A stretch of DNA of 64,000 bases from Eutreptiella sp. 'Long Island Sound 2002' (lineage: Eukaryota > Euglenozoa > Euglenophyceae > Eutreptiales > Eutreptiaceae). Position numbers and translations under genes: made by a program. Shown here in pieces: positions 12,649-52,194 of the stretch (its first letter is position 1; each line of letters begins with the position of its first letter). The notes below the pieces were generated by a model. That model saw nothing but the letters and a program-made list of their open reading frames with translations, had not been told where the DNA came from and ran no database searches. The stretch spans positions 24,636,853 to 24,700,852 of the forward strand of contig OZ038385.1 in NCBI GenBank assembly GCA_964036045.1, in the 5' to 3' direction.

Positions 12649-12654
12649 GACCCC

Positions 12655-13200: not shown

Positions 13201-13267
13201 ACAATTACGCTCCCTTGGTACCCTACAACGTCGCTTACGACCATCTACCCCGGGGACACGCTCATAG

Positions 13268-22215: not shown

Positions 22216-22454
22216 CGCCCCTCCCAAGAGAATAGCGCGGGTAGGCGTGCATCTTCCTGTGGCTGGTTGAACGGCGGGGAGCGCCCATACTGCCCTCAAG
22301 GACGCTGTCCTTCTTTCTCACCTTGTACACGCTGCACTCCCCATCTTGTGACACCTTCGTCCTCGCGTCTGTCCCATGGCACGTCGAACACCGTCAGCCG
22401 ATGTTACGCAAGTGGTCCTGCTGCACAGAGTGGCAGGACTGCATAGATTTTTTT

Positions 22455-24436: not shown

Positions 24437-25105
24437 CTTAGCCCACGCAAACCGCACCCTGTTTTCCAACTCAACGGCGGCATTTGTGTGCAAAAAAAAG
24501 ACGCGCAGTTTCCGCGTGTTTCCACCTGAAAACTGAGAATTAAAAAACGGAGGAATCTCAAATATATTTTTTTAGGCTATCAGCGGAATGCAAGTAGTCA
24601 GAGGTATGAAAAAAACGCTTTTTTTGGCATGTTGAGTGCGCAAGGCCTCGCGCACTCAATTATGCACAATGTGTATTTCCCAATGGTCCTGAATAAACAG
24701 TATTCCATGCCAAATGAGGCTCCGATGTCTTCATGGGTGCCTCATGGTGTACCGTTCGGGTCATGTCAGCAGCAAGAGTGGTCAATCAATGGACGCTTTG
24801 TACACGCCATGCACCATGTAAGGTGTAATAGATCTAAAAAGGCGGGTTGCCCTCAGTCCTTGCTAAACACACGATTTTCAGTTAGTTTACGGGGAAAATG
24901 ACCGGTGAACCCTCTGATTTTGGACTAAAGACTGGTTAATTGACCCCCCTAAAAACAGCAAAAAATGGGCAAAACTGATGAAGAATGCATTTTTCGGGAG
25001 GGTTTGAAAAACAGTTTTTTCAAGATGGCAAAAAAACTTTTTTTTTCGGTGACAAAATCTAGGTGCTTAGGTGAAAAAAAGGGGGTGCAGTTTGCGTGGG
25101 CTAAG
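24437..25105. mobile_element. 669-bp MITE of the Tp1 transposon family
   Basis: Ends are CTTAGCCCACGCAAAC and GTTTGCGTGGGCTAAG, matching the terminal inverted repeats of Tp1. It is flanked by ATAAA at 24432-24436 and 25106-25110. Copy 2 of the host LTR has the intact target ATTATAAAATATATCC, so precise removal of one ATAAA plus the element restores it. It carries one copy of the 22-bp palindrome and no coding frame, and depends presumably on the Tp1 transposase. Confidence 0.9.
24635..24656. repeat. Palindrome P0 (22 bp) in the MITE
   Basis: AGTGCGCAAGG followed by its near-complement, one mismatch from perfect; with flanks TTG/CAA the symmetry extends to 28 bp. Confidence 0.85.
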
Positions 25106-27142: not shown

Positions 27143-28399
27143 TTGTACCTGAGGGCCGAAGATATTGAGCGCCAGGAACGGCTGCAATACCTCAGACAGA
27201 CCTGGAAATCCTCCATCTGGTCTAAGGGGGACGACGAGTCTTACACGCTACCTGACCCTGAGATACTCCTAGTGTATTCTCTGCACTATGGGCAACAATG
27301 TTCCCCTGAGTGGGATGATAGCTCAGTACTTGCCAAAACTGCTGATGGGCAGAAAAAGAATGAGCGTGTTAACAGCAACCTCCATGCTGAGGAGGAGTTC
27401 CGGCAGAAAATCGAGAGTCTGAACCTTGACCCCCGACTGAAGAAACTGCTCATGACCTATGAGGAGGTGTTCGGCGCCTTGACGCCTCCCCTGTCCTGCA
27501 AAAAACTAGTTCAGATGGACCTGAAACTGAAGCCTGAGTTTGAGAAGACGCGAGTGAGACGTCGTCCCTATCCCGCTTCTCAGGAACAGGTTGAGGAAAT
27601 CGAGCGCCAGATGGAGGAATGCATTGATGCTGGCCTCGTTGAAGAATATAAGAAGGGGGACTACCCCCATCACTGCAGTCCCTGCTTCCTGGTTGCTAAA
27701 CCTGGATCGACTGCCCTGCGACTGGTTGTTGACTATGGTGAAGTCAACAAGAAAACCCAAAACCACTCCGGGAGTATTCCCAACATGGAAAACACCCTGC
27801 AGCGTATTGCCAAATGCCGGTACAAAACCAAGATGGACAAACGCAGTGGTTTCTGGCAGGTTGACCGAACAGCCGCAGCTCAGGAACTGCTGGCCTTTAT
27901 AACCCCTAAGGGTCGTGTGTTTAAATGGAAGGTCATGCATTTTGGGGTAGCCAACGCCCCGGCACTCTTCCAAGAACTGATGACCAAAATTTTGTACATA
28001 CTGAGGCGCAGACCTCTTGTACAGGAGTTGATTTCCCGAGGGGCACAAATGGAGGCCCACATCGATGACGTGAGTTTGGGTACCAATACCGAAGAGGACC
28101 ATGTGCTTCTCCTCCGTGAATTTTTTATTGTCAGTCAGGAAAACCATCTCCGAATCAAACTCCAAAAATGCGAGTTCATGAAAGAGGAGATGGAGTATTT
28201 GGGTTTCGGCGTGGGATATGTCTGGTGGAAAGCAGCCGCGTCTAAGATGCAGCCCCTACAGGACATGCAGATTCGCGATGACCCTAAGAAAGGTCTACAT
28301 GACGTGAGGAGTTTTGTGGGCGCCTGTAACTTATATAGGCGACACATCCACAATTTTACCTACTCTTCTGCCCCTATGTTCACCCTATCACTGACCTAA
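27143..28399 (+). pseudogene. Gy1 reverse transcriptase
   Basis: The 418-codon frame contains the N-terminal QMDLKLKPEF, RRRPYPASQEQVEEIERQ, SPCFLVAKPGSTALRLVVDY, motif A KMDKRSGFWQV, KVMHFGVANAPALFQELM and the active site EAHIDDVSLG. The HIDD box replaces the usual YxDD first residue, as it does in the homologous Gy3. The end leads into the RNase H connection, but a 1-base shift near 28385 breaks the frame (MF then PITDLSKKTTPWRW in the next phase). Confidence 0.85.
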
Positions 28400-29183
28400 G
28401 CAAGAAAACTACTCCCTGGAGGTGGACCGCCAGAGAGGAGGAGTGTTTCCAGGAGTTGAAGAAGAAAATTGCTTCCTCCAACTGCCTGGGGGTACCTCGC
28501 CCTAAGGGTGAGATAGTCCTGATCACTGATGCCAGTGATGTAGGGGGGGGTGGAATGATATACCAATGGCAAGAGCTTAACCGAGCTGAACTAACCCATT
28601 GCCATCATCGCACCACAGGACTGAACCGTGATGGTTCCCTGAAGCATGACTATCCCTCCAGTGAGTGGCGACTTGTACCACTAGGTCACTGGAACTGGAA
28701 ATGGAACCAGGCGTGTTCAAATTACAGCACCTACGACCAGGAGCTCCTGGCCGGTATGCTTGTGCTCTCATCCCAGTCCCGACTATGGGGATCTAACCCT
28801 ATTGTCTGGCTCTGTGACCAGGAACCGGTGAAGTCCTTTCAGAAGGGCCCACCACCAGAGAAAGCGAAACTAAAACGGTAGTGGACGTACCTCAGTTAGT
28901 TCAGGCTGACAGTCCATCATATCGCTGGTGTAAGAAATGAACCGTCTGACTACATATCGCGCAACAACTTTGATGCGCTTGGTGGTGAGAGCTCTGAGGC
29001 TCTTGCCAAAGAGGCTTTCCAGCGTATGGACGTCCAGCTGGACCTGTCTATGCGCACAGCTGGAATCCTCGAGGGATGGAGCCTAACTGACTATGAGTCA
29101 GAATATAAAGATATTCTCCAGACCCTCAGCACTGGTCTCGAACCCCCTCTCATTGACGGGCACCAGTGGTATAAAAAAAACCA
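28400..29183 (+). pseudogene. Gy1 RNase H and connection
   Basis: The first catalytic motif is LITDASDVGGGGMIYQW at about 28519-28570, and the Glu motif is NYSTYDQELLAGMLVL. VWLCDQEPVKSF holds the next Asp. The frame then meets TAG codons at about 28879 and 28909; in Gy3 these positions are Trp and Gln. SDYISRNNFDAL ends the domain. The remaining sequence to 29183 leads into the integrase zinc region. Confidence 0.75.
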
Positions 29184-30086
29184 ATGCCTCTTCTACGAGG
29201 ACCGTATAGTCTCGATGGGTGTCTACAGTGGTTTCATCTCAACTCAGGTCACACTGGCGCTAATCGCTCAGTGGACATCTTTCATGAGTGTTTCTACTCT
29301 GGTCTAACCCTGACAGAACTGAGGTCTCGAATGCAGACCATTGTTGATGCCTCTGGCTGTCATGCCACCAAGCAGAGCGATAGTAGGGATAGGGGACTGA
29401 TTTCCAGCCTACCCATACCCTATTGTACTGACTCTCTTATCTACGTGAATTTCATCCACGGCCTACCTCGCTTCGGCGGTTATGATAGTTGCCTAGTGGT
29501 CACCTGTGGCCTGTCACGCTTCACCCGTCTGTTCCCTTGCAAAAAGAAAATCACAGGCGAGCAGACTGTGAAAATGTTGGTGGAACAATGGTTCGAACCA
29601 TACGGAGCACCTAAACAGGTGCACTCTGATGTAGATGTACGCATCCGCAGTGACACAGGATTGTACAAGCAAGTGCTGAACGCCCTCAATGTTGAGGTAA
29701 CCACAGGTGTGCCCTATACCCACAGGTCTAATCCTCTTTGCAAGAGACAAAACTGTGTGGTGGAACAGAACCTGCGAATCCTGATGAAACAGGAGCGTAT
29801 CAAGGATTGGGTACGCCTGGTGCCCTGAGCAGTGTTGACCATGAACTCTCCGAGGAGCTCTTCTACAGGTTTCACCCCTCACGAGCTGTTTCATGGAGGG
29901 TGGCCTGCTTGGTTCTTCAAAACCCCCTTTCCTGAGGACTTCAAGAGCCCCGTTGGGGATTGGCGGGAACACACGCAGTCAATCGCTAACCAGGCTGGGG
30001 CTAACCTGAGACACATCTGTGAACGTGAACTGAGCTGACGAAATCGCCTACGGCGACCCGCCAGTTTCGAGGTTGATGACCTTGCT
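29184..30086 (+). pseudogene. Gy1 integrase core
   Basis: The frame 29184-29828 aligns with Gy3 integrase: SGHTGANRSVDIF, FGGYDSCLVVTCGLSRFTR, ITGEQTVKMLVEQWFEPYGAPK and VHSDVDVRIRSDTG. Two of three catalytic acids are lost: YVDY of Gy3 is YVNF (Asp to Asn) and LCERQ is LCKRQ (Glu to Lys). Both fit single G-to-A changes. A TGA at about 29826 and another at 30036 (Trp in Gy3) end the frames. Confidence 0.75.
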
Positions 30087-30620
30087 TTGGTTCACCATTC
30101 ACGACTACCCTCCTGGCTCTGTAAGTGCCTAGAGGACCCTTATTTTGGGCCCTATCGTATCATCAGGATAGATGGATCTAGAATCCATGTCAGGTGCAGT
30201 CCACGTCTAGGTGGTGAACTGCTTTGTGCTCCTAAGCAGTTGAGGCACTATCATTCCCCCGATGATTTGTCCTGGGATGAGTGGCACCTCAGCGACAGTG
30301 AGGTCGAGCGTATCGACCTAGAGGACGCTGCCAGCGCTGAGGAGGCAGATGAACTCGAAGAAATGACTGCCGATGAGATGGCAATCGATGGCTACTACGT
30401 GGTTGCAGGTATTGCCCGCCACGAGTATAAACAGGGGTGGAAATTCCTTACCCTGTGGGACGGATATGCGCTATCTGAGGCGACCTGGGAGCCCATGTCC
30501 GCCTTTATACAGCCAGATGGGAGTATCAACCCAATCTTTTGCTCCTACCTCGTTGAGAACAACGAGGGACAGCTGCTAACCCGTGCTGAGACTCTGTCCC
30601 AGCGGAAGAAGAAAAACTAA
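30087..30620 (+). pseudogene. Gy1 integrase C-terminus and chromodomain
   Basis: A GPY/F-like module (EDPYFGPYRIIRIDG, IHVRCSPRLGG) is followed by an acidic spacer and a chromodomain: GYYVVAGIARHEYKQGWKFL, LWDGYALSEATWEPMSAF. The aromatic positions Tyr and two Trp expected for a methyl-lysine cage are present. The frame ends at a TAA with a basic tail (SQRKKKN). Confidence 0.8.
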
Positions 30621-33494: not shown

Positions 33495-33801
33495 AGTAGG
33501 AAAACGTCACTACCATGTCTTCTTTAGGGGACTTCATCCACGCCAAGCCCCCCCTAAAGGCCTTTTGTTGACGTTGAGACTAACTTAATCATTTTTATCA
33601 CTCTTTTGAAGTTTAAAGTACACTTTCTCAAAGTAACTAGGGTTATAACCCTAGCCTTCCCATGAAACTCACCCCTACCACTCAACTGAGCGGAGGTATC
33701 TTCCTTTATGGAGGTAATACCGAAATAAAGTAGGCACTTCATGCCTAAGGCCTTCTAGGTTACGCCTAGTGGTCCCCCACCTCAGGACCCCTATACTCAA
33801 C
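33495..33801 (+). repeat. Gy1 3' LTR, first part
   Basis: Start AGTAGGAAAAC is assigned by analogy with Gy3. It contains an 18-bp perfect palindrome, CTAGGGTTATAACCCTAG, at 33637-33654. It is interrupted by Tp1 at 33801; the continuation is at 43163 onward, but its end is not identified. Confidence 0.5.
33797..33801. repeat. Tp1 target-site duplication, left (TCAAC)
   Basis: TCAAC is repeated at 43163-43167, directly outside the two terminal inverted repeats. Confidence 0.85.
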
Positions 33802-33824
33802 CTTAGCCCAAGCAAACTGCACCC
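33802..33824 (+). repeat. Tp1 left terminal inverted repeat
   Basis: 23 bp beginning CTTAGCCCAAGCAAAC and ending in GCACCC; 22 of 23 bases match the right end. Confidence 0.9.
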
Positions 33825-33998
33825 TGTTTTGCGCGCCGAACGCGCAGAAAAGGACCGGTTCGCAACAGAGGAAAAAAACTATTTTTTTGGATGTTCGATG
33901 AACGTGATTTCGGGCGTAGTGAAATAAATTGCTTTTTTAGTGTTGTGCAACTCCGTGTTCCTCAATGTGACGTTTTTTTACATTTCTCTGGCGTTCTG

Positions 33999-34020
33999 AG
34001 TGCGCGAGGCCTCGCGCACT
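33999..34020. repeat. Palindrome P1
   Basis: Perfect 22-bp copy, AGTGCGCGAGG plus its complement, flanked TG/CA. Confidence 0.85.
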
Positions 34021-34223
34021 CAAGGTATTCAAAGTAGAGTTCATTACAAAACCTAAAAACCCGTAAGGACTGGCGTTTGCGGAAATACGCAGCTCCCACA
34101 CGGTATTCAAACTAGGATTGTGTTGCCCAAGGAGCATTGGAAGTGTATGACTGTCGGACTTCCCATGTAAGGCGAAACACATATACTGTAAAGTGAAAAT
34201 GAACTACAAATTTCGGCATCCGG

Positions 34224-34245
34224 CGTGCGCGAGGCCTCGCGCACT
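34224..34245. repeat. Palindrome P2
   Basis: Same as P1 except that the first base is C. Confidence 0.85.
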
Positions 34246-34409
34246 CAGGTCACGTTATGTATTAATTTACGGAAAGGATATGACGCGTACAATTGCACGT
34301 ACAACACCAGACAGACGAACACAGTTGAATCATTTCTGGTGTACGTGTGTGTAGACACAGTGTTGGTCAGATATAACACGGTATAGAACATTGCCCGGCG
34401 GAAACAATC

Positions 34410-34431
34410 AGTGCGCAAGGCCTCGCGCACT
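34410..34431. repeat. Palindrome P3
   Basis: One mismatch (AGTGCGCAAGG), the same variant as in the MITE. Confidence 0.85.
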
Positions 34432-34499
34432 CAAACGACGGAAGAAAATGAAAAAGCAGGCAGGTCAGGCTACGCCGGTATTTACCACCTGTGACATTC

Positions 34500-35830
34500 G
34501 ATTATACATCGGTAACCGTCGTCATATTTCTCAGGGGATCAGGGGAATGATTTGCTTTTTTGCTAACAGCCACTCGATGGCAGACGTGTCAAGTTCATGG
34601 CATCGCGCTCATCACATGGCACACGGGTTAAGGCTTACTCCTCTCTCCAAGCTCAGATGCCTAGATTCGTGTCAACGCAATTCGCATGGATCAAAGGACA
34701 CGCGGGATTTCAGGGAAATGAATGTTCTGATCTATTCTCCAAGTGGATTGCATACAGTTCATCATCCTCCCCTGAGTTGCAACCCCCACCCCCCTTGGGA
34801 ACTGTATCCTCCGGTAGCTTGCCTGTCTGCCACCGCCTGACCACCTCTGTATCAAGGGCCCTCATCCCCCGCCATCACCACCACAACATTCACGTGCCGT
34901 CCAGTTTTTTCTTCTACAAGCACTCATCGTGGTTCTCTGGACTCCCCTTCAAATGGTCGTCTGGCAACATGAATTTTTTACTTATGCATTCCACAACGAC
35001 CTAACTCCCCGAATATGTCACAAATGCTCACAACCACACGCCCTCGATGTAGCCTCCTTCCTATCCCACTGCCCTAGCGCTGACCACATTGTGCAAAGCT
35101 TCATACATGCGTGGCCTCCGCCTTTCAACCGAGTAGCAAGCATCTGGTCGGCCTAGTGCTCCCACCAAGGAGACAAACGAGATTTCGTCAAGCTCCTGGT
35201 GCCCTCCACCCTGTACGAAGCCATGATTACACCCACAACAGGCGAAAACAAACCCCAGCGCATCTTGTCTTCTAAAAATGCACTCCCCCGGCGCCAGCAA
35301 AAGTTGAAAGACGCTCTGTCCAAAGCACTCACTTGGCTAGCCGAAGATCCTCCCCCCCTCCCGCGCCCCCCCCCCCCCCAAGGCCCCAACACCTGGGGCA
35401 AACCAAACAGCATCTACAGCACGTCACACACCCCACGGGCGCACAGCGAATACCACTATCCCTTGCCCCCGGACCACCTGCCAAACTCAGTCCAATCCCC
35501 CCCCTCAAAAAAACAACGCACCCACAAAAACAAAAAGCCCATGCATCCCAAACAAAAACCCACGAAACGCGACCGGGACACTGAAGATCCCCCACCACGC
35601 AAAACTGGAAGTGACACCTACGCCCCTAAACCGGTGGCACCCCCCCAACCCCCCGGCGCTGACAGCTCCAACCGACGGATTACTGATTTCTTCCGAGCTC
35701 CAGCCCCCCGTCTATCTTCGGCTGAGCTGCGTCCGTCAGCAAGATCAACGCCGGGATCTTTTTCGCTCCCCCCCATCGCTTGCCCTACCCCCCCCCAGCA
35801 AGCGGTTTCATCTCGGCCAATAACAGAGTG
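34500..35830 (+). pseudogene. LINE fragment: RNase H domain, zinc finger and proline-rich tail
   Basis: FAWIKGHAGFQGNECSDLF (about 34684-34740) is the C-terminal RNase H motif of LINE ORF2 proteins, and FFANSHSMAD in another frame near 34560 is its upstream Asp motif changed to Asn. A C-terminal zinc finger reads ICHKCSQPHALDVASFLSHC (about 35017-35076). A frame from 35199 carries a proline/lysine-rich tail to 35831. Frames shift at least twice. It is probably a 5'-truncated LINE inserted in Tp1; I cannot fix its borders. Confidence 0.6.
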
Positions 35831-35831
35831 A

Positions 35832-37223
35832 ACCCTAGCCGAGCTAACGAGGCCCCTACCCCTTCCAGTCACTCATTCCACTTCTCAGCCTTTTTCCCCA
35901 TCCATTGCTATCATGTGGTACCTCGGCATCCACGGGTGTTATGAACCTGAAAGTCTTGGATACTACTATTGCTGGTTTTGGGTACCTGAACCCCGCTAGC
36001 CGTCCCCTGAAATCCTGTGGTACCTGGACTGAATGTATACAGCACTCGAGTGCACCCAGCCCACCCGCAATCGGCGTTTGTCTTGGCGTTGCACGCGGAC
36101 AGCCTGATAATGCACCCTAGGAGACCCTTTCTAATCCCTTCGAACACTGAAGTCAGTTTGTGAGGCACTGATCCATTACACACAGCGGTCGCGACTACCG
36201 AACACTTGGTCATCTCTGCGAGCTCCCTCCTGCCGCGACGTACACACATCTCCCAGCGGTCGGGTGTGGAGACAGCGACCGCGTCATTACTACGGTAAGG
36301 CCACCACAAGCGTCATCAGTGTTCTCGGAACTGGATCCAGATCTCCCCCCCCTCCTCCAGAATGCTAACTCGACTGTCGTCCTTCGACCACGACTGTTCT
36401 CGGGCTCTGTCAGTCAGTCTACCCATCAGTGGGACCCCTATTGCGCGTTGAAGCTTTCTCTGCTTAGGACCATCACTTCGCCAGAGATGATAACCGAAAA
36501 TAATTGTTCACATAGACGAATATGCATTCTACCCCGGTCCCCTCCGAGATCCTTCTCTATGTCTGCCTGCACACTTCACAGTAGTTACCGATTTGTTCCA
36601 CCAATTGAGTAAGCCTTGGCTGATTTTATCCACACCATCACGTCTTACATCACAGCGCCTCCGTTCCTCCCCTTGATCCTGATTTTTCCCTGTCACGCCT
36701 CCACTTCTCTATGCAACCAACCAGGCACCCAAACGGGCGCGCGCCAAGGCAACCTCGCTCTCTTCAACCCTACCCATCCATGACAGGGCGAGTTCCGAGG
36801 TTCCTCCATGGCTACACCCCTCACATAGTGCTAGGGAGAGCCAAGCACGTTTGTATTTACACTTCACTCTGATTGAGGGCTGTGTCCCTGTCCGGACATT
36901 AAACTGGCTGTACAGATAAAAAAAAAGACGTGTCCAGTTCTAGTACCGGCCGTAGCCTTCGCTGCCCGACAGATATGGTTTTTTTTTCCAACTGGGTTTA
37001 AAGACGGAAACAGAACAGGAAATTGTGGTTGCGAAAACGGTTTTCGGTTACTGGGAACGGAGCGCACGCAGACACCAAATACAATTTGCGGCGGCAGCAC
37101 GTGCACCAGAAATGACGACAGGAAAAGGCCAGATGTTTTCAAACACACTTTTTTTAAAGATCGCTGTGCGAAACGATAATTAAAATATGTGTGCAAATTT
37201 AATTCCACAGAGAAAAACGCAAA
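35832..37223. other. No gene recognised
   Basis: This part probably contains the rest of the LINE 3' region and the Tp1 promoter upstream of the transposase. Poly-A-like ATAAAAAAAAAGACG at about 36914 is the only notable feature. A minus-strand frame at 36864-37379 is a shadow of the transposase region. Confidence 0.35.
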
Positions 37224-39221
37224 ATGCCACTTCGAGCCAGAAAATCCGTAACGCATCGAATGATAGCAGAAGTAAGCAAGAGAGCAGCAGTAAAACGAGT
37301 GGCATGCGCGGCAGAACCAGCATACCAAACAGCAGACGACCTGTGGAAAGGACTGAAACAAAACAACTTGGCGGCGCAACTGGTGTTAACAGTTGCACAG
37401 CGGCTCAGGTTCAACAAAACAACGCGCCACAGATTACCAGCAGCTAAAAGGCCGGAGGACAAGCGCTGGGTGCGCATTTTGCAACAGGAGGGCTGGAACC
37501 TGTACCTGTTGATGCGTCAACGGGCAGTACCAAACAGGAAAAAACCGGGAAACACAACAGAGTACCTAACGCAAACAGAAAGACGAACAAAAGTACGACT
37601 TGGGCAAGCAGACGCTGCCGCAGATACAGTGGACGAACAGGCAGCAGCAGCACTTAAAGCAACGTGGTCACTGGTGCTTTCGTCGTGTTGCGTGCTGTGG
37701 ATAGACAACTGGTACCGGGCACAATACACGACACACCCAGACAAAAGTGACCGGTCGCAAAACTGTACTGCAATGGCAGTACTTCAACTGAACCAGAGGC
37801 CCACATATTGGGCAGGACATCCAGCCATTGAGGACCTGGCAGCACGGATAACGACAGTCGCAAGGGCTCTGCAACAGCGCGAACAAAGAATCCCCCAGAC
37901 TTTGCGTGACATGGGGTATGCAGATGGGTGTGTACCAGACACCGGAAATGTGAGAGCACCGTTGGATGTGAGGAGGTATGCAAGGACTGTGCAGGCACCG
38001 GTGTGGCGCCCGTTTGCCCTGTCAAAAGAAAAGGTAACTGGTGGTGTTGGTCTGTTAAACTTGTTACACTTTGCAAAGGACGTACCACAGCAGACAAACA
38101 GAGTTCTACCGCTGTTGGTTGACGAAAACATACACTACAGGATACTAAAGTTGTTGTACGGTGCCAAGAACCAACGATGGAACATGCGTGCGTACCTGCG
38201 TTATGTGCCTGTAGTTTACGGTGTCTGGCATGCCTACAAGTTCGTTGTTACTCATACTTTTCGCGTGTTCTGGCCTATACTAACCTACCTACGGAAAGGT
38301 CTGCTACGACCTGGTTCAACCATACTATCATACCCCAAACTGATGGTTATGGAAAAAACTATTGCTGCGCTGATGCTTGCCACACCCAGAATACTACGCC
38401 CGTATGGGCGCAAGGCACAAGCTGCACCCGCGATCAGTGGTCGTGACACTGCGCATGCCCACAGGGCAGCAGTGGCAAATGCAGTCTTGCATTTGTTGTC
38501 AAAATGGTGCCCGTTGTTGTTGTACTTGGGCCACGTGGTACCAGAATGCAACTGGTCGGGGGAAAACAACGGTACAGGGTCAGGAGCTCAGGAGGTGTTG
38601 CAGTTGAGTTTGTGTCTTTTGCGGAGGCTGCGTCGAGGACCGTGTGACACCGTACTGAAGTACAAACGCACAATCATGTGCACATTGTTGTACAACAGCA
38701 AGTGGCACCAGGACCTGCCCGGTCAGGCACACTCAGAGGAGTTTGGAGAAGGGATGTTGAGCAAGCTGGTGCGGGACAAGGCGAGAAACACGGGTTCTGT
38801 TACTGTTGAGGAGGTGGAAAACCACTACTTGTTACTAAAGGTTGGTCCTGGTGGCAAACGCGTGGGGATGCAAAACGTTCCCAAGAACCTGGTACACAGG
38901 ATGCGACAACGACTGAGAAGATTTTTGGCGACAAACCGGATTTGCATGGCCTACGTGGAATGGGAGTCCAACAGAGTCAGCACCGTTGCAACTTCGTGGC
39001 CGCGGAGGTTACCGAGATTTCCACCCTCACCTACACAACCCCTTGGTTACGACCACTACTGGCTACTTGATCACAGCGTACTAGATGCCCTCATTGACCA
39101 GAAAACAAATCCCCCCAACCAATTGAAACGGAAACTGGATGCTGTTGTGGGGCGGAGAACAGATGTGGATGCCGACAGACAGGAAGCAGCAACACGCAAC
39201 ATGCGGCAACGCTTGCGGTAA
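37224..39221 (+). CDS. Putative Tp1 transposase, 665 codons
   Basis: The frame starts at an ATG in a favourable context (AAAATGC), is intact and ends in TAA. The N-terminal 150 residues are very basic and may bind DNA. Residues 154-163 read SCCVLWIDNW (Asp161), 296-306 read LPLLVDENIHY (Asp300) and 331-339 read VYGVWHAYK (His336). This order, an Asp-Asn, then a polar Asp box followed by R, then a Gly-x-x-His strand, resembles the pattern in DUF6589-like transposase proteins, where GDQLT and PGxFH occupy the last two places. The catalytic Glu is not identified. The protein would act on the CTTAGCCC ends. This is a distant, motif-level resemblance only. Confidence 0.55.
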   Translation: MPLRARKSVTHRMIAEVSKRAAVKRVACAAEPAYQTADDLWKGLKQNNLAAQLVLTVAQRLRFNKTTRHRLPAAKRPEDKRWVRILQQEGWNLYLLMRQRAVPNRKKPGNTTEYLTQTERRTKVRLGQADAAADTVDEQAAAALKATWSLVLSSCCVLWIDNWYRAQYTTHPDKSDRSQNCTAMAVLQLNQRPTYWAGHPAIEDLAARITTVARALQQREQRIPQTLRDMGYADGCVPDTGNVRAPLDVRRYARTVQAPVWRPFALSKEKVTGGVGLLNLLHFAKDVPQQTNRVLPLLVDENIHYRILKLLYGAKNQRWNMRAYLRYVPVVYGVWHAYKFVVTHTFRVFWPILTYLRKGLLRPGSTILSYPKLMVMEKTIAALMLATPRILRPYGRKAQAAPAISGRDTAHAHRAAVANAVLHLLSKWCPLLLYLGHVVPECNWSGENNGTGSGAQEVLQLSLCLLRRLRRGPCDTVLKYKRTIMCTLLYNSKWHQDLPGQAHSEEFGEGMLSKLVRDKARNTGSVTVEEVENHYLLLKVGPGGKRVGMQNVPKNLVHRMRQRLRRFLATNRICMAYVEWESNRVSTVATSWPRRLPRFPPSPTQPLGYDHYWLLDHSVLDALIDQKTNPPNQLKRKLDAVVGRRTDVDADRQEAATRNMRQRLR

Positions 39222-39232
39222 CTGACACCCGC

Positions 39233-39254
39233 AGTGCGCGAGGCCTCGCGCACT
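39233..39254. repeat. Palindrome P4
   Basis: Perfect copy, 11 bases downstream of the transposase stop codon; could act as a hairpin in the 3' end of that transcript. Confidence 0.85.
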
Positions 39255-39272
39255 AAGCGTTACGAAAAACAG

Positions 39273-39455
39273 GTATGTAATGCGATGTGAGTGCGCGAGG
39301 CCTCGCGCACTGAGTAGTTCGCTAAGTCCCGTGGAATTAGTCACAACAAAGACGGTTGTAAAACAGATTTGCGAAAACGACCTGCAAAATACCGTTTCGA
39401 CTGATTTCAGAGTTCAAATGACTGTGTTTCATGTCCTGCCATTTGCCCTTTTCAG
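39273..39455 (+). other. Putative 5' UTR intron of the second Tp1 gene, 183 bp
   Basis: AG/GTATGT at the start and TTTGCCCTTTTCAG/G at the end, 15 bases before the ATG at 39471. It contains palindrome P5. Confidence 0.55.
39290..39311. repeat. Palindrome P5, inside the 5' UTR intron
   Basis: Perfect copy, flanked TG/GA. Confidence 0.85.
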
Positions 39456-40237
39456 GTATTTTTTGGCATCATGAGTGAACTAGGGTCGCCAGAACGTCCA
39501 GCACCAGACGCAGAGGCCATGGAGTCGTCACCAGGGACCGACCAAGGGGACACGCAGAAGAAAGGACGCAAAGGAAAGAGTGAGAAGACAATACCGGAGA
39601 TGAAGCTCACAGTCGACGTGCAACAGTGGCTGCGGCAGGAAAATGGTAAAGCCGTGAAGGTAAAGATTACTGATTTGAAATTGACAAGACCAAGGAGCGC
39701 GGACAAATCCGATCCATCAACTATGACGACAATGCCAGGAAGGTGACGGGATACCAAGCACTACCACCACCTGGTCCGTTGCGCGTAACGGCATGGGAGG
39801 ATAGTGGTATGACTCGCTTCGCGTTCGATCGAAGACGTTTCTTCTCTTTGCTTCGCTACATGATTTGCTTCCCAGATGGCTCACTTTACATTCTGAATGG
39901 TCAACAAGGCACAGAAACATGCAGAAAGATTCAGGAACTGCGTCTCGCAGAAGCCAAAGAATTGGAGGACCGGCAGGAGTTTTGCTACGTTGACATTCTG
40001 AAGTACGAAAGGCCTTGGAGGATCCGATCCAAGGTTGCAGGATTGCAACAAGCTCGCAGCCAGTCTGTGATGTGGCTTCCGCTGTCCGAGCTACTGGACA
40101 ACATGTTGTTGTACATTGAGGACCAGAAGCGGGAAAAAGAGCCACAAGATTTCGAGCGGTTCAAGATTGCTGTTGTCCAGGCTGCCGTCAACTTTGGGTT
40201 TCTTGCACCCGAGGCTTTGGAGGAAGCAGGACACACA

Positions 40238-40310
40238 GTATGTATTCGTGTATCGCAGGGTTATAGTGCGCGAGGCCTCGCGCACTCCATGACACTGTTT
40301 TCCCTCGCAG
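40238..40310 (+). other. Intron 1 of the second Tp1 gene, 73 bp
   Basis: GTATGT...CCCTCGCAG; splicing keeps the frame (ACA/AAC). Contains palindrome P6. Confidence 0.8.
40265..40286. repeat. Palindrome P6, inside intron 1
   Basis: Perfect 22-bp copy. Confidence 0.85.
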
Positions 40311-40614
40311 AACTCGACATTCAAGAACTGGAGGGACATCTTCTCCCTGGCGTATTACTGCGGCCGTGAGGCGGTTACTGGTATGAAGAACCTCGAGAGT
40401 AAGAGCAGGAAAGAGGACGTTACAAGGAATGCCTTCAAGAAGCTGGAGGGGCTGCATCTACCCAGCTTATTGCAGAACGTCTGTGCGCATATGAACCTGG
40501 AGGACTCGACCTTACGCTCCACCCAGAACTACATTGGCGCGCTGATTACGGAACAATTGGTTATTTTCCATCTTGACCATCCGGACAATAAGCTGTATGT
40601 CAACCAGAACGCAG

Positions 40615-40685
40615 GTATGCGTCAGTGTCGCAGCTTCAGTGCGCGAGGGCTCGTGCACTCAACCACCTTTTTCACATCCGCACAG
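40615..40685 (+). other. Intron 2 of the second Tp1 gene, 71 bp
   Basis: GTATGC...CATCCGCACAG; the split codon G/CT is restored. Contains palindrome P7. Confidence 0.8.
40638..40659. repeat. Palindrome P7, inside intron 2
   Basis: Two substitutions from the consensus (AGTGCGCGAGGGCTCGTG...). Confidence 0.8.
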
Positions 40686-41363
40686 CTGCCGATGCGAAGA
40701 TCCGAGCAGAAGTTGCAGCACTGGGCACGACGCAAGTAAAAGTTGGGCTGGGAAATTGGGGTTATTGGGAGGACGCAAAAAGTACGAAGTTTCGGTCGCC
40801 GTGGCCAAAGTGGAAGACTTTGACCGGTGCACCTCTTTGGCGGACCTCCATTACTGCAGACGCTGGCCGTGCGGAAACAACTGCAAAGGAAGACTGAGGC
40901 ACCATCATTGGCACCGCCACAGACACAGCTGAGTACTGGCGATGTGATCAATGTCTCCAAGCAGGACGAGCTAGGGAGCAAATTCGCTTTGACGGCATGC
41001 CGTATTGAGGATATTGAAGAGACACCACCAACCCGTTTCCGGGATCTGCAGTACCCGTTGTGGGTCATCAACGCTGACCTTTTCGTTCAATATGACTCTG
41101 CAGGATTTGTTCCGAAGTGGCTGTTTGATGTGATGCTGGGGAAGGACGTCATTTTCTATGGCGAGGCTGATCTTGTGCACCGTATTGCCCGCGACATGCA
41201 GAGGCTGTGGCGTATGGAGAAGGACAAGGATCCAACCACAGTGCCATTCTACCATGCCCGGTTGCCCCTATACTCTTGGTTATCGGGTCCCGTGACCAGC
41301 AATATGTATCAGTTCGACGAGCACTGTATGTCGATCGGAACAACGAGTCGCTGGGATAAGCAG

Positions 41364-41460
41364 GTATATCTGCTTCTTTCGCCGGTTACGATGCCGTTGT
41401 GTGCGCCAGGCCTCGCGCACTGCTGCCTCCGTTATTGGTCTTTATTCATCACATTTACAG
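41364..41460 (+). other. Intron 3 of the second Tp1 gene, 97 bp
   Basis: GTATAT...CACATTTACAG; splicing keeps the frame (CAG/TTG). Contains palindrome P8. Confidence 0.8.
41400..41421. repeat. Palindrome P8, inside intron 3
   Basis: Two changes from the consensus (TGTGCGCCAGG then a consensus right half). Confidence 0.8.
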
Positions 41461-42336
41461 TTGCCGAACTATCTGACGTATTCCGCTGGACATTTCGAAG
41501 AGATGCAGAACAAGAACCTAGGTGGTTTCATGCCTCTGATTCACGTGCTGTGGTACCTGGACAAAAATCTTTTGGGCAGTGGGCATGCTGATGCAGTAGT
41601 TGCTGTGGACGACACGCCTGCGATGACCGCAAAGATTGCGATGTTGGAAGAGACGAAGAGGACTAAAGTGGAGTTTCTGGCTGTTTCAGCGATCAAGCAA
41701 AAGGACCTTGCGAATGCCGTTGGAGGTGCTCTGCAGCATGCGATCATCATGCGGTACATGTTGGAGGCTGATCAGACGGAGCAGGGAGCAACAGCTGCAA
41801 CTTGGGATACTCAAGAAGAGTGGTCTCTGCGTGGCATTCCACTGTGGGTTCTGCACAGCAGCCGAGGATATGAAGGGCACCAGAAGGTGCAGGCTGCAAA
41901 AGCCGTTCAGGAAGATGTCGTGACTGAGGCCCCCGCTGACGACACTGAGCCTGTTGCGCCTGCACCTACCTTGCCAATGCACGCCAAGGTGAAGAAGACT
42001 GCCAAAGTTATACCAGATCAGGGTACTGCAGCCGGAAAAGGAACCCCCTCGAGTAGCAAGAAGCAGGCGAAAGGAAAAGACAAGGAATCGGACAAGCCCG
42101 GAGAATCAGACGATGACGATGCCGACCAGGAGGAGGAAGAAGAGGATCCGGAGCAAGTACTGGAGACCCAGCCGAAGCGCAAGCGGGCACCCGCCGCTCA
42201 CTTCGACGCAAGTCCCAAATCTTTCTGAGTGTCTATTTTTTTTCGACTGATGAGGGCCTAGTGTTGGGCCGAAACCGGTCTCGTTTTTTGGCTTTGTTTG
42301 TGGACGCTTGCATGTGAGCCGTGTGTGAAGTAGCCT

Positions 42337-42597
42337 GTGACCACCGCTAATTTTCTGATTGAGGACCCCTTCTCAGGATTTTCCGGCGAGGACAAGCTCA
42401 AAGCTCATCCCAAAAAATTCCAAAAACCGACGAAGAAAACGAAGACTGCTGCGAGTGCTAGTGCAGAGTTCAAGCCGCCGTCGCGTTCTGGTGCCCAGCC
42501 GTCTCGTGGTACCATTGCCTCCCCAACTGGGACACGTGTGGTGGCAAGAAACCTCGGTTCCAGGTTGGCTAAGGTTGCAGGACCGAAAACGAAATAA
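42337..42597 (+). other. Small basic open frame of Tp1
   Basis: The frame encodes about 86 residues rich in Lys, Ser, Ala and Pro (KKFQKPTKKTKTAASA) and ends in TAA. It has no ATG at its start. CCCCTTCTCAG at 42368-42378 could be a 3' splice site, making this a terminal exon. It could also be non-coding. Confidence 0.25.
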
Positions 42598-42639
42598 GTC
42601 ACCATTAACCCAAGTGTTTCGCCTCTTTTTGCAGTCATG

Positions 42640-42661
42640 TGTGCGCGAGGCCTCGCGCACT
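42640..42661. repeat. Palindrome P9
   Basis: Consensus except for the first base (T); lies just after TTTTTGCAG, a possible 3' splice site. Confidence 0.8.
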
Positions 42662-42798
42662 CGCCTTCGACGTGAATGCAATTATATGCCCTTAAGGGCT
42701 TGAGCATTTTTGCCGAGCTTTTATTTCAGTGTTTGTGCGATGTGCACTTCCTGTCCTGTTTTTGTTGTCTTCTATACACAATTGTTTCCGTGACCTTG

Positions 42799-42820
42799 AG
42801 TGCGCGAGGCCTCGCGCACT
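42799..42820. repeat. Palindrome P10
   Basis: Perfect copy, flanked TTG/CAG. Confidence 0.85.
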
Positions 42821-43139
42821 CAGGTACATAAAAAAGCAATTTATTTCGCAGGACAAAAATAGGTGCAACTGGAGACCCGCAGAATGTCATTTTTGAAAAT
42901 GAGCTCCCGAAAAGGCACGCACCAGTTGGTTTTTGAAATACAAAAACGACAAGATTGGTAAAACACACCCTTCAAATCAGACAAAATAATAGTTTATTTT
43001 AATAAACAAAAACTGGAAAAAAGCAGCAAATTGGGTAAAATTGTATTTTTTCGGTGGTATCTGGGTCATGTGTGCTGCAAATGTCCAAAAAGAATAGTTT
43101 TTCGGGCTGTCGTTTTTTGGGTCCTTCTCTTCCAAAAGG
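42821..43139. other. Tp1 right subterminal region
   Basis: AT-rich and non-coding. TATTTTTTCGGTG near 43045 is similar to TTTTTTTCGGTG near 25043 in the MITE. Confidence 0.4.
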
Positions 43140-43162
43140 GGGTGCAGTTTGCGTGGGCTAAG
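43140..43162 (-). repeat. Tp1 right terminal inverted repeat
   Basis: GGGTGC...GTTTGCGTGGGCTAAG, complementary to the left end with one mismatch; preceded by AAAAGGG as in the MITE. Confidence 0.9.
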
Positions 43163-47210: not shown

Positions 47211-47873
47211 GTCCCTAGCTTTAGTCTTGGAGGCAAGCGTCCCAGCGAGCCTCAGCAACTCACCAAGGTTGTTCTGGGACAAGTAGTCAACCAGAACTGA
47301 GTTTAGGCGTCCCTCAGGTAGAACAAACGCAGAGAAGGGCTCCCAGGTGGCCTCTCCGACTCAAAACCCTTCCCAGAGGGTGAGGAAGCGCCAACCCTGG
47401 CAATAGCGGTGGCGTAGGACAGACTTCACCAGGTAGAAGCCCTCCTTAGCCATCTCCTCGGCGTTCATGTCGGGGAGTTCCCCTTCCACTTCCATAGGGC
47501 TGGCAGCCCCTTGTAGGTCTAGGGCGGCGATTTCCTCGTCGTTCAGCTCCCACTCCTCCCCACAGAGGTCTTCAGGATCATAGTAGCGCTTCAGGTGTTG
47601 AGCAGCGCACACCAGGGTCCCCCCTAGACGGGGACAACACCGCACGGTGATACGGTGTCCATCCACTGATAGAATCTTGTACGGTCCGAAGTATGGGTCA
47701 TCGCTGGTAGAGCGTGGCCAGGCGGGTAGTCGACTGTACCCACCAGCACCCAGTCCCCCTCTTGGTAGGTGGCCGGTACTCGGTGCTTGTTCTTCTTGTT
47801 CCACTGACGCTCCCTCACTCTCTGGAGCATAGCCTTGGCCTTGTCCACCTTCGCTTGTTGCTCTTGGACCCAT
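47211..47873 (-). pseudogene. Gy3 integrase C-terminus and chromodomain
   Basis: The frame from 47873 covers DDPYFGPYKILSVDGHRITV, an acidic spacer and the chromodomain start GFYLVKSVLRHRYCQGWRFL. A TGA (47361-47363) follows LWEGF; the same frame then continues VGEATWEPFSAF to a stop near 47211. The aromatic cage positions match Gy1. It overlaps the integrase frame in another phase, so a frameshift lies near 47700. Confidence 0.75.
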
Positions 47874-49345
47874 TCACCCACAGAAGAATGGGTGTCCTCT
47901 GGATAGGGGGCATGCAGGAACCATGCCGGGCGCCCTAGGAATAGCTCATGGGGCGAGTACCCAGTAGCTGAACTCTCTTGGGAGTTCATCATCAAGGATA
48001 TGACGGGGAGTAGTCTCACCCAGTCTCTGGTGCGTTCAGTTTTGCACCATATCCTTACATTCTCCTTGAGGACACGGCTCTGTCGCTCACATAGGGGCTT
48101 GCTCGTGTGCGAGTAGGGGATCCCCGTAGACACCTGGACATCGAGGGAGCTCAGGACGCTCTTGTACCAGCCGGTATCTGAGCGTACTCGTACGTCCTCA
48201 TCGGAGTTGATCTCCTTGGGCGCCCCATAGACACAAAACCTCTCCTCCAGGAGTATCTTGATAGTCTCCTCCCCGGTAATGTGCTTGGTACATGGGAACA
48301 CCCTGGTAAACCTGGTCAACCCACAGGTTACCACGAGGGCGAAGTCATAGCCCCCAAACTTCGGCATCTCCGTGTAGTCCACGTATAGAACACTGTTAGC
48401 ACAGTGAGGGATGGGCAGGGTCGAGTAGAGACCTCTGTCCCTGATATCCCCTGGTTTGCAGGACCTGCACGGGCACTTGTCCACGATAGGCTGGAGGGTT
48501 TTCCGCAGTTGGTCGTCAGTCCACGTAGTGTGGAACCACTGCTTGAACAGCCTCAGGGTACGGTCAGCACCCACATGACCGCTGGACTCATGGGTCCGTT
48601 TCAGCAGCGCTGGGACTCTGTCACTAGGCACCACGATGCGGTACTCGTGCCAGAGGTAGCTCTTGTCCCTCTTCCACGGATCTTGGTTGATCAGGAGGGG
48701 TTCAAGGCGTTTCTCCAGGCGCTTGTAGATATCCCCGAACTCCTTCAAGTACTCCGATTGTTGGAGTCCATTCAGCAGGCGTATCATCGTCATGTTGAGG
48801 TCCAAGTGGAAGTCCATACAGCTGAACGCCTCCTTAGCCAGCGCTTCAGACCGGGCACCAATCAGGGCGTTGAAGTTGTTGCGGCTGATGTAGTCTGCAC
48901 ACTCGTTCTTCACTCCCTGGATATGGTGTACCGTCAGCCGTAGTTGACTGAGGTAGGTCCACCAGCGCCGTAGCTTGGCCTTCTCAGGTTGGGGGCCCTT
49001 CTGGAAACTGCGGACCGGTTCTTGGTCGCACAGCCATACCACAGGGTTACTCCCCAACAGTCGTGCTTGTGAGGATAGCACTAGCATACCCGCGAGCAAT
49101 TCCTGCTCATAAGTGGAGTAGTTCCCCCTGGCCTGGTTCCATTTCCAGTTCCAGTGGCCCAGAGGTACTACGACCCACTTGTCGTCAGGGTAGCTGTGCT
49201 TGAGGGTTCCATCTCGGTTGAGACCTTCCGTCCCCCGTTGGGAAATGGCCGAGTCGAACTCTTTTTGCACTGAACGGCGCCTTTTGTGGCTGGCCAGGCC
49301 TGCCGAGTCGAACTCCTCCTTCTCTAGTGCTTGCCATTGGAACAA
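47624..49345 (-). pseudogene. Gy3 RNase H (most) and integrase
   Basis: The 573-codon frame begins in RNase H just after a TGA (49349-49351) that follows TDASNVGGG. RNase H motifs NYSTYEQELLAGMLVL and VVWLCDQEPVRSF are present. The integrase zinc-binding region is THESSGHVGADRT...CPCRSC. The catalytic triad is complete: YVDYTEMPKF, INSDEDVRVRS and PLCERQSR. It ends out of phase near 47624. Start codon is not meaningful because the product is part of a polyprotein. Confidence 0.8.
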
Positions 49346-49348
49346 CGT

Positions 49349-50290
49349 TCATCCACCGCCCACATTGCTGGCGTCGGTCACCAGGATAATCTCCCCTTGT
49401 GCCCTAGGCACGCCCAGGCACTTAGCGTTGGCCACCTTGTCTTTGAGCTCGTCAAACGCTTGTTGCTCTTGTGGGCCCCAGCGCCAAGTAGTACTCTTCT
49501 TGATCAAGTCCGTCAGAATGGCGCTGGTGTAGGTGAAGCTTTTGATATGGCGGCGATAGAGGTTGCACGCCCCAATGAAACTGCGTACATCATGAAGTCC
49601 TTTCTTGGGGTCTTCGTGTCGTACCTTAGCATCCATCAGGGGTTTGGCCTTAGAGGCCGCTGGGGTCCACCACCCATAGCCAACGTCAAACCCCAGGTAC
49701 TGCATGGTCTCCTGCATGAACTCACACTTCTCCAGCTTGAGTTGTGTGTGGTTCTCCTGGCAGACCGCAAAAAACTCACCCAAGAGGATTGGGTGGTCCT
49801 CCTGGGTATTGGTCCCGAGGCATACATCGTTGATGTGAGCTTCCATCTGGGCCCCACGGGATATAAGCTCCTGCACCTTAGGTCTCCTTCGTAGGATGGA
49901 CAAGATCTTGTTCATCAGCTCTTGGAATAGAGCGGGTGCGTTGGCCACGCCAAATGGCATGACCTTCCACTTGAACACCCTCTCCTGAGGGGTGATGAAG
50001 GCCAGTAGCTCCTGAGCGTTGGGCGTCAGGTCCACTTGCCAGAATCCGCTCCTCTTCTCCATCTTGGTCTTGTAGCGACAGGAGGCTATCTTCTCCAGGG
50101 TAGACTCCATATTGGGAATGGACCCTGAGTGGTTCAACGTTTTCTTGTTCCGCTCTCCGTAGTCCACTACCAGCAGTTTGGCTGTAGACCCGGGTTTAGC
50201 CACCAGGAAACAGGGGCTGCAGTGTAGGGGGTAGTCCCCGTCCTTGTACTCCAGGACTAGGCCAGTGTCGATACATCTTGTATCTCTCAC
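49349..50290 (-). pseudogene. Gy3 reverse transcriptase
   Basis: Motifs in order: SPCFLVAKPGSTAKLLVVDY, KMEKRSGFWQVDLTPNAQE, KVMPFGVANAPALFQELMNK and MEAHINDVCLGTN. The active-site box is HIND where Gy1 has HIDD, so the first catalytic Asp is replaced by Asn. The thumb/connection DVRSFIGACNLYRRHI is kept. The frame is shifted relative to the preceding pol frame at about 50285, where a TGA replaces an Arg codon of Gy1. Confidence 0.85.
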
Positions 50291-52191
50291 TCAATCTCGT
50301 CGGCCTGCTCTTTAGGAGCTGGATAGGGTCTCCTCCGGATCTTCTGACCCACGAACTCGGGTTTCAGCTTGAGGTCCATCTGTACCAGCTTGTCACATGA
50401 AGCTGGAGGGGGTAGTTCTCCGAACACCTCCAGATAGGTCCTTATAAGCTTCTGCACCCGCGGGTCCAATAGCTTGATTTTGTCCTCCATGTCCTCGTCA
50501 GAGTGTAAGTTGCTTGCCCCCTGAGTAATAGACGTCAGGAGGTGATCATCCACCAACTTCTCGCCCTTGGTAGTGTCCTTCAACCCTTGGTAGGCATATA
50601 GGAGGTCTTGTTCAACCATCTCCGATGGACGATGGCAACATAGGCAGGCTCGAGGGGGTTCACATACACATTCCTCCGAGAGGTCGTCCTTCTCTGGGGT
50701 CCTCACATGGGCGCCCCACAGGCTCTTCATGAGCTTAAGATCTACCTCCCTTTGGCAGGTGGTGTTCTTCTCTTCGAGGTCCTCCTTCAATTGGGATAGA
50801 TCTCCCATACGTCCTTGCTTCAGTGGCCATGAGCTGCGGGTAGGCTTAGCGTAGCATAGCTTTTTCGCCACCAACTTCCTCTTGGAGTCCACATACTCCC
50901 TTAGCCTGGATCGAGGGTCCAGCTCTTCGTCCACGGGGTCTTCCACCCTCATGGAGAGTAGGGGTTTCAGTGGGGCAACGTACTCGGCGTTTTCCACTTC
51001 CTCCACACAGGTCTGCACGAAGAAGGCGTTGTGCTCAGTTTTGTCATCTGAGTGGAAAGAGCTAGGTAGCTCGGATAGTCCACACTCAGAGACTCCATCA
51101 GGAACAGGTACATGGCAGGGAGAGTTGGGGGCGTTGGTGTCAGTCACGACGTACTCATCTCCTCCGGGTATAGTCTCAATAGCATCTTGAGGTCGTAGTT
51201 GATCCTTCAAGTCACCCAAGGCGAGTCCATCGCTTTCTCGTTGTATAGCCTGGACCAGAGTCGGGTCCAGATCCTCGCAGGGGATGGAGGTAAGACCTCC
51301 GTCCACCACGCTGAGCATACTCCCCCATCCGGGTTTCCCAATAGGCGTCTTACGCCCCGGAGACACGTAGATGGCCTCATCAGGTAACCGAACAGAGCTG
51401 ATAGTCAGCCTGTCCAAGAGGTTTCGCCAGTACTCGTTGCCCCCATGGGCTCCCCAATCGGGGGAACAAAGGACCATACGGGAACGTTCCAAGTCCACCT
51501 TGGTCAGGACCTTCCCCAGTTTACTGAACCTGGGGTTCCCGTAGGCCATCCCAAAAGAGGGCCAGTAAAATTTGTAGCTGCAGTTCTTCCCCTTGCTGCA
51601 GTAAAGGTCCAGTACATGCTGCTTGTCGCTGGCGAACAACTCCACATTCAGGTCTTCTCTAGAGTAACCCAACTCCTTCAGACCTTGGTCTAGGACTTCC
51701 CCCAATAGTTGATAGTCCTCAGTTTTCGAGGCCGCCATCATGTTGGAAGTCTCCTCCTTCGATAGCCTCAGGTAGCTCGAGGTATGTTCCGCCTGCTCCA
51801 GTGGCACAGACTCTCTGCCACTGCCGTGGTCCACGTGGAGGAGGTAGGGCGCTTGCAGCGTCAGGGATTGTATCTGGGAGTGCTTCACGAAGAAGTCATT
51901 CCTGAATACAAAGTCGAAGGCCTCAGTGTCCATCACATAGAACCGATGGGCAATCGTCCGGGAGCCCATAGGTACCTCCACTTCACAGTCCCCGCAGCTG
52001 TGCACCACATGTCCATCCTCCATTCGTATAGCCGCGGTGGTCATGGTGTTCTTCAGGCTCCCACAAGGTAAAATTTTCTTGGCCACTATAGATATGGTGG
52101 CGCCAGGATCCAATACCCCCAGGGTGTGGCGTCCCCCTAGTCGGATACGTACCCAAGACACCAGGTCCTGGGTGCCACCGGAGCGTCCCCG
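50287..52191 (-). pseudogene. Gy3 protease, methyltransferase-like domain and linker
   Basis: This 635-codon frame is in phase with gag across the TGA at 52192-52194. The protease motif is LDPGAT where Gy1 has LDTGAT; loss of the Thr makes activity doubtful. The methyltransferase-like domain follows: NVELFASDKQHVLDLYCSK, GMAYGNPRFSKLGKVLTKV, MVLCSPDWG and LLDRLTISSVRLPDEAIYV. An acidic and Cys-containing linker (CVCEPPRACLCCHRPSE) leads to the RT start (QMDLKLKPEF, RRRPYPAPKEQADEIE). Confidence 0.75.
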
Positions 52192-52194
52192 TCA
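52192..52194 (-). other. In-frame TGA between Gy3 gag and protease, candidate readthrough stop
   Basis: GAG TTC TGA CGG GGA. UGA followed by CGG is a known efficient readthrough context in tobraviruses. It is homologous in position to the TAG at 584-586 of Gy1. Confidence 0.55.

Follow-up and report, generated by a model that had tools for sequence, protein, structure and literature searches.

The window analysed here, a 64,000-nucleotide (64-kb) stretch of contig OZ038385.1 of Eutreptiella sp. 'Long Island Sound 2002' (GenBank assembly GCA_964036045.1, positions 24,636,853 to 24,700,852), harbors an autonomous-type transposable element, hereafter family 1, and a short non-autonomous element [Table 1]. 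The former carries two genes: ORF1 (open reading frame 1), encoding a predicted DDE transposase, and gene 2, with four predicted introns. The initial annotation had placed a GC-rich palindrome ten times in the larger element (named Tp1 there) and once in its miniature inverted-repeat transposable element, and the 22-mer AGTGCGCGAGGCCTCGCGCACT was indeed present at all eleven coordinates with zero to two mismatches each. No further match with up to three mismatches was found elsewhere in the window, and 100 dinucleotide shuffles of the window yielded no 22-mer match. The description of nearly all copies as perfect proved overstated: five of the eleven matched the 22-mer exactly, and seven contained a perfect inverted repeat of 20-26 bp, the remaining four having one or two mispaired positions; at 24635, in the short element, symmetry extended to 28 bp with one mismatch. 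As argued below, these palindromes are conserved dyad sites, made of two half-sites around a 2-bp variable centre, and are likely bound by a dimeric protein which the element itself would encode, in recognition of the element's ends and probably in marking or regulation of the whole element.

Layout and conservation of the palindromes in family 1

The full family-1 copies, namely that of the window and those of regions L023, L024, L027 and L033, carried ten palindromes in the same order: three before ORF1 (197, 422 and 608 bp from the left end), one past its stop codon, one in each predicted gene-2 intron and two near the right end (501 and 342 bp from it). All ten sites avoided predicted coding sequence (p about 1e-5), and the probability that ten random non-coding places would supply each of the four gene-2 introns with a palindrome was 0.009, gene-2 splicing being a prediction only. 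In the window copy, the distance from site 3 to site 4 exceeded that of the other four by ~2.3 kb because of an insert around 34471-36927. This insert, which is rich in C-runs and by eye displays an RNase H-like reading frame and a terminal A-run, resembles a fragment of the LINE (long interspersed nuclear element) type.

Differences from the majority base were counted in 13 family-1 copies over columns covered by at least four of the 13, regions L021-L035 being places listed for holding the exact 20-mer of the palindrome. Palindromes differed at 34 of 1920 positions (1.8%), compared to 849 of 17112 (5.0%) in other non-coding DNA, 1439 of 35743 (4.0%) in coding sequence and 2 of 534 in the terminal inverted repeats (TIRs), in agreement with the earlier proposal that the palindromes are under selection. 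CpG bases were changed at 15 of 700 positions in palindromes versus 141 of 1790 in other non-coding DNA. The surrounding genes had been described as decaying, which fits gene 2 of the window copy, with its frameshifts and an insertion near 42220-42378 that breaks the tail where related proteins read through uninterrupted, but not ORF1, which is open.

Among 946 scored family-1 palindrome base pairs, 53 were changed on one side and none on both. The centre of the palindrome was site-dependent, GC at most sites and GG at 40638 in all eight copies covering that site. Single palindromes were wholly or partly deleted in individual copies (33999 in L021, part of 39290 in L024 and part of 42799 in L028). 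Site 42640 existed in two versions, with different bases at two positions, among the window copy, L025, L026, L027 and L033; one version matched the word usually found at 40638, with unchanged near flanks, and may reflect an exchange between palindromes.

Ninety-one gene-2 reading frames from the protein database extended from exon 1 into intron 1, and the translated palindrome, scored as kept at 70% or more of its residues in any frame, was present in 81 of them. By eye, none of the remaining ten displayed a clean empty site, the place being occupied by substituted, truncated or frameshifted remains or by other sequence; in P0115, the greater part of the intron-1 palindrome seems to be gone. 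The word was kept in 4/4 frames at intron 2, in 11/12 at site 42640, in 3/4 at site 42799 and in one of two at site 39233, the miss being P0055, a distant relative. At intron 3, it was kept in 4/5 frames entering from upstream and in 44/46 entering from downstream, the latter count being biased upward by frames that start at a GTG inside the palindrome. In 75 frames aligned through intron 1, the commonest residue averaged 0.92 in palindrome columns versus 0.75 in other intron columns (p 0.002; five splice-site columns dropped from the intron group), and nearby exon columns, at 0.84, were not significantly different from palindrome columns (p 0.25).

Table 1 Features of the two palindrome-bearing elements of the window (positions counted from the first nucleotide of the window).
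Feature	Position	Strand	Remarks
Short non-autonomous element	24437..25105	+	5-bp duplication ATAAA
Palindrome of short element	24635..24656	.	198 bp from left end
Family-1 autonomous-type element	33802..43162	+	TIRs; 5-bp duplication TCAAC
Left TIR, CTTAGCCCAAGCAAACTGCACCCTGTTTTG	33802..33831	+	
Palindrome 1	33999..34020	.	197 bp from left end
Palindrome 2	34224..34245	.	Upstream of ORF1
Palindrome 3	34410..34431	.	Upstream of ORF1
ORF1, 665 aa, predicted DDE transposase	37224..39221	+	Candidate residues D161, D300, E506/E509
Palindrome 4	39233..39254	.	Directly past ORF1 stop
Predicted leader intron, gene 2	39273..39455	+	GT-AG boundaries
Palindrome 5	39290..39311	.	Within leader intron
Gene 2 exon 1	39472..40237	+	One frameshift in window copy
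Predicted intron 1, gene 2	40238..40310	+	Frames join across
Palindrome 6	40265..40286	.	Within intron 1
Gene 2 exon 2	40311..40614	+	
Predicted intron 2, gene 2	40615..40685	+	
Palindrome 7	40638..40659	.	Within intron 2; centre GG, not GC
Gene 2 exon 3	40686..41363	+	Frameshifted in window copy
Predicted intron 3, gene 2	41364..41460	+	
Palindrome 8	41400..41421	.	Within intron 3
Gene 2 exon 4 and tail	41461..42600	+	Insertion in window copy
Palindrome 9	42640..42661	.	501 bp from right end
Palindrome 10	42799..42820	.	342 bp from right end
Right TIR	43133..43162	-	

A second family with the same core in the same order

A second family was represented by a predicted DDE transposase 44.9% identical to ORF1 over 642 aa and scored at no fewer than 85 places in the genome. 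Copies L036-L039 were chosen by transposase match (four of the 85 scored places) and L040-L045 by core match (six of eight new clusters). Three of the four family-2 copies fetched by transposase match were full (L036, L038 and L039; 6.37-6.40 kb, ten palindromes each), and L037 was a deleted copy with seven palindromes. The family-2 TIR, CTTAGGCGGCTCAAGTTGC..., differs from that of family 1, the ends CTTAG...CTAAG being common to both. Family-2 sites lay 195, 423 and 481 bp from the left end, all before ORF1, followed by one site abutting the ORF1 stop, one each in the leader intron, intron 1 and intron 3, and two at 455 and 347 bp from the right end; at a place that is exonic in family 1, L036, L038 and L039 had one further predicted intron, also bearing a palindrome. 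Intron 2 of L036 (6311-6384) contained GTGCGCCGCAC, which in this one copy resembles a palindrome with a deleted centre. L043, with ~79-80% nucleotide identity to family 2 and the family-2 palindrome code described below, appeared to be a diverged subfamily.

When sites of the two families were paired by order rather than by alignment, leaving out the extra family-2 intron site and the family-1 intron-2 site, the core was identical at 124 of 126 bases over nine pairs and at 13-14 of 14 bases in each of them, internal as well as end sites, while the 20-bp flanks on each side matched at 107 of 360 positions, near chance. A recent origin of the palindromes, one of the two options offered for their uniformity, is thus not supported, since nine positions have same-order counterparts in a family with so different a transposase.

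The outer bases of the sites follow the type of terminal inverted repeat

Half-sites of family 1 have the sequence AGTGCGCGAG, those of family 2 mostly NWTGCGCGAG. Position 2 was G in 86/87 sites of autonomous and 13/13 of short family-1 elements, compared to 0/47 and 0/8 in the autonomous and short elements of family 2; similarly, position 21 was C in 85/87, 13/13, 0/47 and 0/8 sites, respectively. Pooled by TIR, elements with TIR-1 had G at position 2 in 99/100 sites and those with TIR-2 in 0/55, these sites having been found by core match only and coming from related copies, so that the counts are non-independent. Because many family-1 regions had been found with a word that includes positions 2 and 21, the sites were recounted without the exact ones of L021-L035, giving G in 48/49 and C in 47/49 (29 other sites of autonomous and six of short family-1 elements, the 11 window sites and three of L042). 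Positions 2 and 21 of the observed family-2 sites were A or T without exception, and among 37 sites in four copies the pairs 2/21 and 3/20 were complementary 24 and 29 times, versus 21.9 and 29.8 expected.

Apart from the TIR, the short types have little in common with their family's autonomous element, yet carry its code. Copies within one element type were 93-96% identical (z about 30-42), whereas between autonomous and short family-1 elements the DNA separating the sites from the TIRs and from each other was near chance on the left (z of 2.6) and between the right sites (1.2), and weakly similar on the right outer side (5.6). The short elements had only three or four sites, the internal ones being missing, and their outermost sites kept similar distances to the ends: 195-198 bp for the leftmost site (204/205 in short 2) and 339-347 bp for the rightmost (374/375 in short 2), with the second site from the right end at 498-502 bp in family 1 and short 1. 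The short element of the window aligned with parts of a 1.2-kb element bearing three palindromes. The elements are bounded by TIRs, and the 5-bp target duplication was exact in 12 of the 14 element copies with both ends found, the misses being L024 and L039.

Genome-wide distribution

The genome searched amounted to 2.28 Gb in 2205 contigs, of which C1 spans 201 Mb. The 20-mer occurred with up to three mismatches at 18,811 sites, a count that takes in family-2 sites, two bases away from the 20-mer, versus 151 for the reversed control; the exact core GCGCGAGNNCTCGCGC (GCGCGAG-NN-CTCGCGC) occurred at 13,633 sites versus 57. The statement that the palindrome is found nowhere else thus holds inside the window, whereas in the genome at large the word is frequent. 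Its restriction to one group of transposons held up in the clusters examined: all 23, formed by the first places listed in both genome counts and located in the first 22 Mb of C1, belonged to four related element types (autonomous 1, short 1, autonomous 2 and short 2). Fetched DNA served to assign 21 of them, L040 and L041 being recognized as the second short type by their TIR. Of the other two, the cluster at C1:3680046 overlapped a family-2 transposase match, and that at C1:8542671 was assigned from the spacing of its sites only. Outside this genome, the exact 20-mer was found once in each of five loci of a prokaryote collection described as comprising 257 billion bases, which we took as chance, and was absent from viral contigs.

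Products of ORF1 and gene 2

The ORF1 product is predicted to be a DDE transposase, with an RNase H-like fold and a candidate D-D-E set of residues. Foldseek alone returned no significant match for ORF1, and no ORF1 relatives were confirmed in the prokaryotic and viral collections; PDB sequence searches gave nothing credible and Rfam no match at gathering score. A G-Q-H stretch is present in gene 2 of both families (LNGQHGTETCRKIQE in exon 1 and VSGQHSVEAIAKIRE at 5575-5943 of L036) and is reminiscent of ParB/DGQHR proteins, a lead that no family model matched. One gene-2 relative, P0271, came from a transcript source (mmetsp) and covers exon 4 and the tail after ~30 unrelated residues; some gene-2 relatives thus seem to be transcribed. 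P0037 and P0047 are frames fusing gene-2 pieces with ORF1, one per family, from rearranged or internally deleted copies.

Interpretation of the palindromes

Taken together, the symmetric core, the free centre, the parallel but unpaired changes of the half-sites, the switch of outer bases between families and the linkage of that switch to the TIR point to a dimeric protein that reads double-stranded DNA and co-evolves with its family, and this is the reading that we consider probable. A dimer of a protein encoded by the element, from ORF1 or gene 2, would dock on the palindromes, gene 2 rather than the transposase gene being its putative source. The suggestion in the initial annotation that these are transposase binding sites comes close in that it names an element-encoded protein. 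The outermost sites, found at similar distances from the ends in autonomous and short elements, would probably help assemble both ends for transposition. The internal sites, which the short elements with their three or four sites do without, would probably serve the same protein in marking or regulating gene-bearing copies as a whole, be it through transcriptional control or through protection from silencing comparable to that which VANC affords VANDAL21 by way of motifs in its non-coding regions (PMC10398659).

Several observations weigh against binding by an element-encoded dimer. Twelve of the 13 family-1 copies had been fetched for an exact palindrome, one or more per copy, so that conservation is somewhat overestimated (by an arithmetic estimate, the divergence of 1.8% becomes about 2.1% if one exact site per copy is left out). 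Point mutation alone hardly accounts for a near-identical word at ten places unrelated to each other, and some copying process may have seeded the sites. Pfam and NCBIfam returned weak hits only and gave neither protein a credible family (the best E-value, 0.0003, came from one of 25 members), and the structure prediction for gene 2, with a pLDDT (predicted local distance difference test) score of 36, allowed no fold to be assigned. In family 2, intron 2 lacked a site in the one copy where it was seen (L036), and the outermost pair 1/22 was complementary in 18 of 37 sites versus 10.5 expected from composition.

A more elaborate form of the same proposal is possible, although we hold it with less than even confidence: that the shared 14-base core and the family-specific outer bases, set at some ten fixed positions, among them each predicted family-1 gene-2 intron, constitute a recognition code on which the element-encoded dimer docks element-wide, that introns serve to carry sites into the gene, and that short derivatives are mobile only with the code of their own TIR.

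Among the other explanations, the idea that function resides in the end sites only, in the manner of the subterminal transposase sites of the P element, the internal ones being remnants, agrees with the retention of end sites at similar distances in short elements, but is unlikely given that between-family conservation is equal at internal and end sites (13-14 of 14 core bases at each of the nine). Binding by a host protein, such as an insulator, repressor or replication factor, is slightly less likely still. It would account for element proteins devoid of a recognised DNA-binding domain and for end sites in short elements too short for these genes; however, the outer bases switch between families within one genome and track TIR type in short elements as well, a single host protein would not be expected to require two codes, and all 23 examined clusters fell inside these elements.

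The initial annotation also raised tiny mobile units copying themselves within the element, to which introner-like insertions that partly create introns may be added. In their favour are 22-26 bp of near-identity in unrelated flanks (three of 220 flank pairs above the 99% null, with about two expected), the palindrome-bearing predicted family-2 intron where family 1 is exonic, and the version of site 42640 identical to the usual word of 40638. Yet, judged by eye, no direct repeat longer than 1 nt flanked the 22-bp unit at any of the 11 window sites, the 91 frames offered no clean empty intron-1 site (the word being kept in 81 and mostly lost, it seems, in P0115), and nine positions have counterparts in the 44.9%-identical family, making such units improbable. 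Least probable of all are RNA hairpins (9-bp stem, GGCC loop) acting in splicing, processing or stability: each predicted family-1 gene-2 intron does hold a palindrome, and the arms paired in 6/6 folds (in five of them along all 9 bp), but six of the ten sites lie outside predicted introns, short elements without these genes retain end sites, only three of the six folds clearly beat shuffles (z of -2.0, -3.3 and -5.7, the others -0.7 to -0.9), the 53 one-sided changes stand against no compensating one in family 1, though similar copies leave little time for these, and family-2 pairs 2/21 and 3/20 pair as composition predicts, 1/22 alone being higher.

Relation to known systems

The P element of Drosophila has internal transposase sites, 11-bp subterminal repeats and an 8-bp target duplication; no ten-site grid or second gene of this kind is known from it. 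The 5-bp duplication found here excludes both the P element and hAT superfamilies (8 bp), and canonical Transib, which agrees in its 5-bp duplication, has ends of the CACWRTG type instead of CTTAG...CTAAG. En/Spm, with CACTA ends and a 3-bp duplication, also encodes two proteins, the second of which, TnpA, binds repeated 12-bp subterminal motifs; the likeness lies in the two proteins and the repeated motifs, those of Spm being 12-bp motifs and not long palindromes. In the ParB/parS system and the KorB operators, many near-identical dispersed palindromes are bound by one dimer, a parallel that, together with the G-Q-H stretch of gene 2, we regard as a lead only, no family model having matched.

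VANDAL elements of Arabidopsis carry a family-specific short motif in their non-coding parts, related families having different motifs, and the element-encoded VANC binds the motif of its own family and removes silencing; its targets are tandem repeats that diverge rapidly (PMC10398659). The present elements resemble them in having a family-specific non-coding motif and differ in that the palindromes are single and dispersed, 57 bp to several kb apart rather than in tandem arrays, with position and core kept across families. Introner elements of Amoebophrya have inverted repeats at both intron ends and direct repeats at the borders (PMC7789003). The likeness is that of palindromic motifs tied to introns; here, one palindrome lies inside the intron, its flanks are unrelated and sites occur outside introns too. 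Moreover, the gene-2 introns were not similar over their length: in six intron pairs, compared separately on each side of the palindrome, one of 12 comparisons gave p 0.018 and the rest 0.11 or more, so that an introner origin is disfavoured.

In view of these mismatches of duplication and ends, and of the differences from VANC targets and introners, we file the elements as a group of DDE transposons with an unusual grid of cis-sites rather than as members of the P, hAT, canonical Transib, VANDAL or introner groups. No description of such a site grid was found in the literature searched, most subscription journals lying outside it.

The two families provide a natural experiment on how a transposon distinguishes its own copies from those of relatives in the same genome, and co-evolution of protein and DNA becomes testable with the two codes, the four element types and the fixed grid of sites. 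Should the internal sites prove to counter silencing, the VANDAL strategy would be paralleled in a different transposase lineage by sites that are dispersed and have been kept for long. The match between sites and introns further raises the question of whether introns are kept as hosts of regulatory DNA.

Other features of the window

Apart from the eleven copies described above, the sole perfect palindrome of at least 16 bp in the window was an 18-bp one, CTAGGGTTATAACCCTAG, at 33637-33654. A unit of ~1.2 kb is present in three tandem copies at 21231-23945, 92-99% identical in the parts compared. Frames resembling retroelements, with peptides like those of reverse transcriptase and integrase, were recognized by eye at 10708-14197, 27143-30620 and 47624-54684, the last two being partly inverted repeats of each other.

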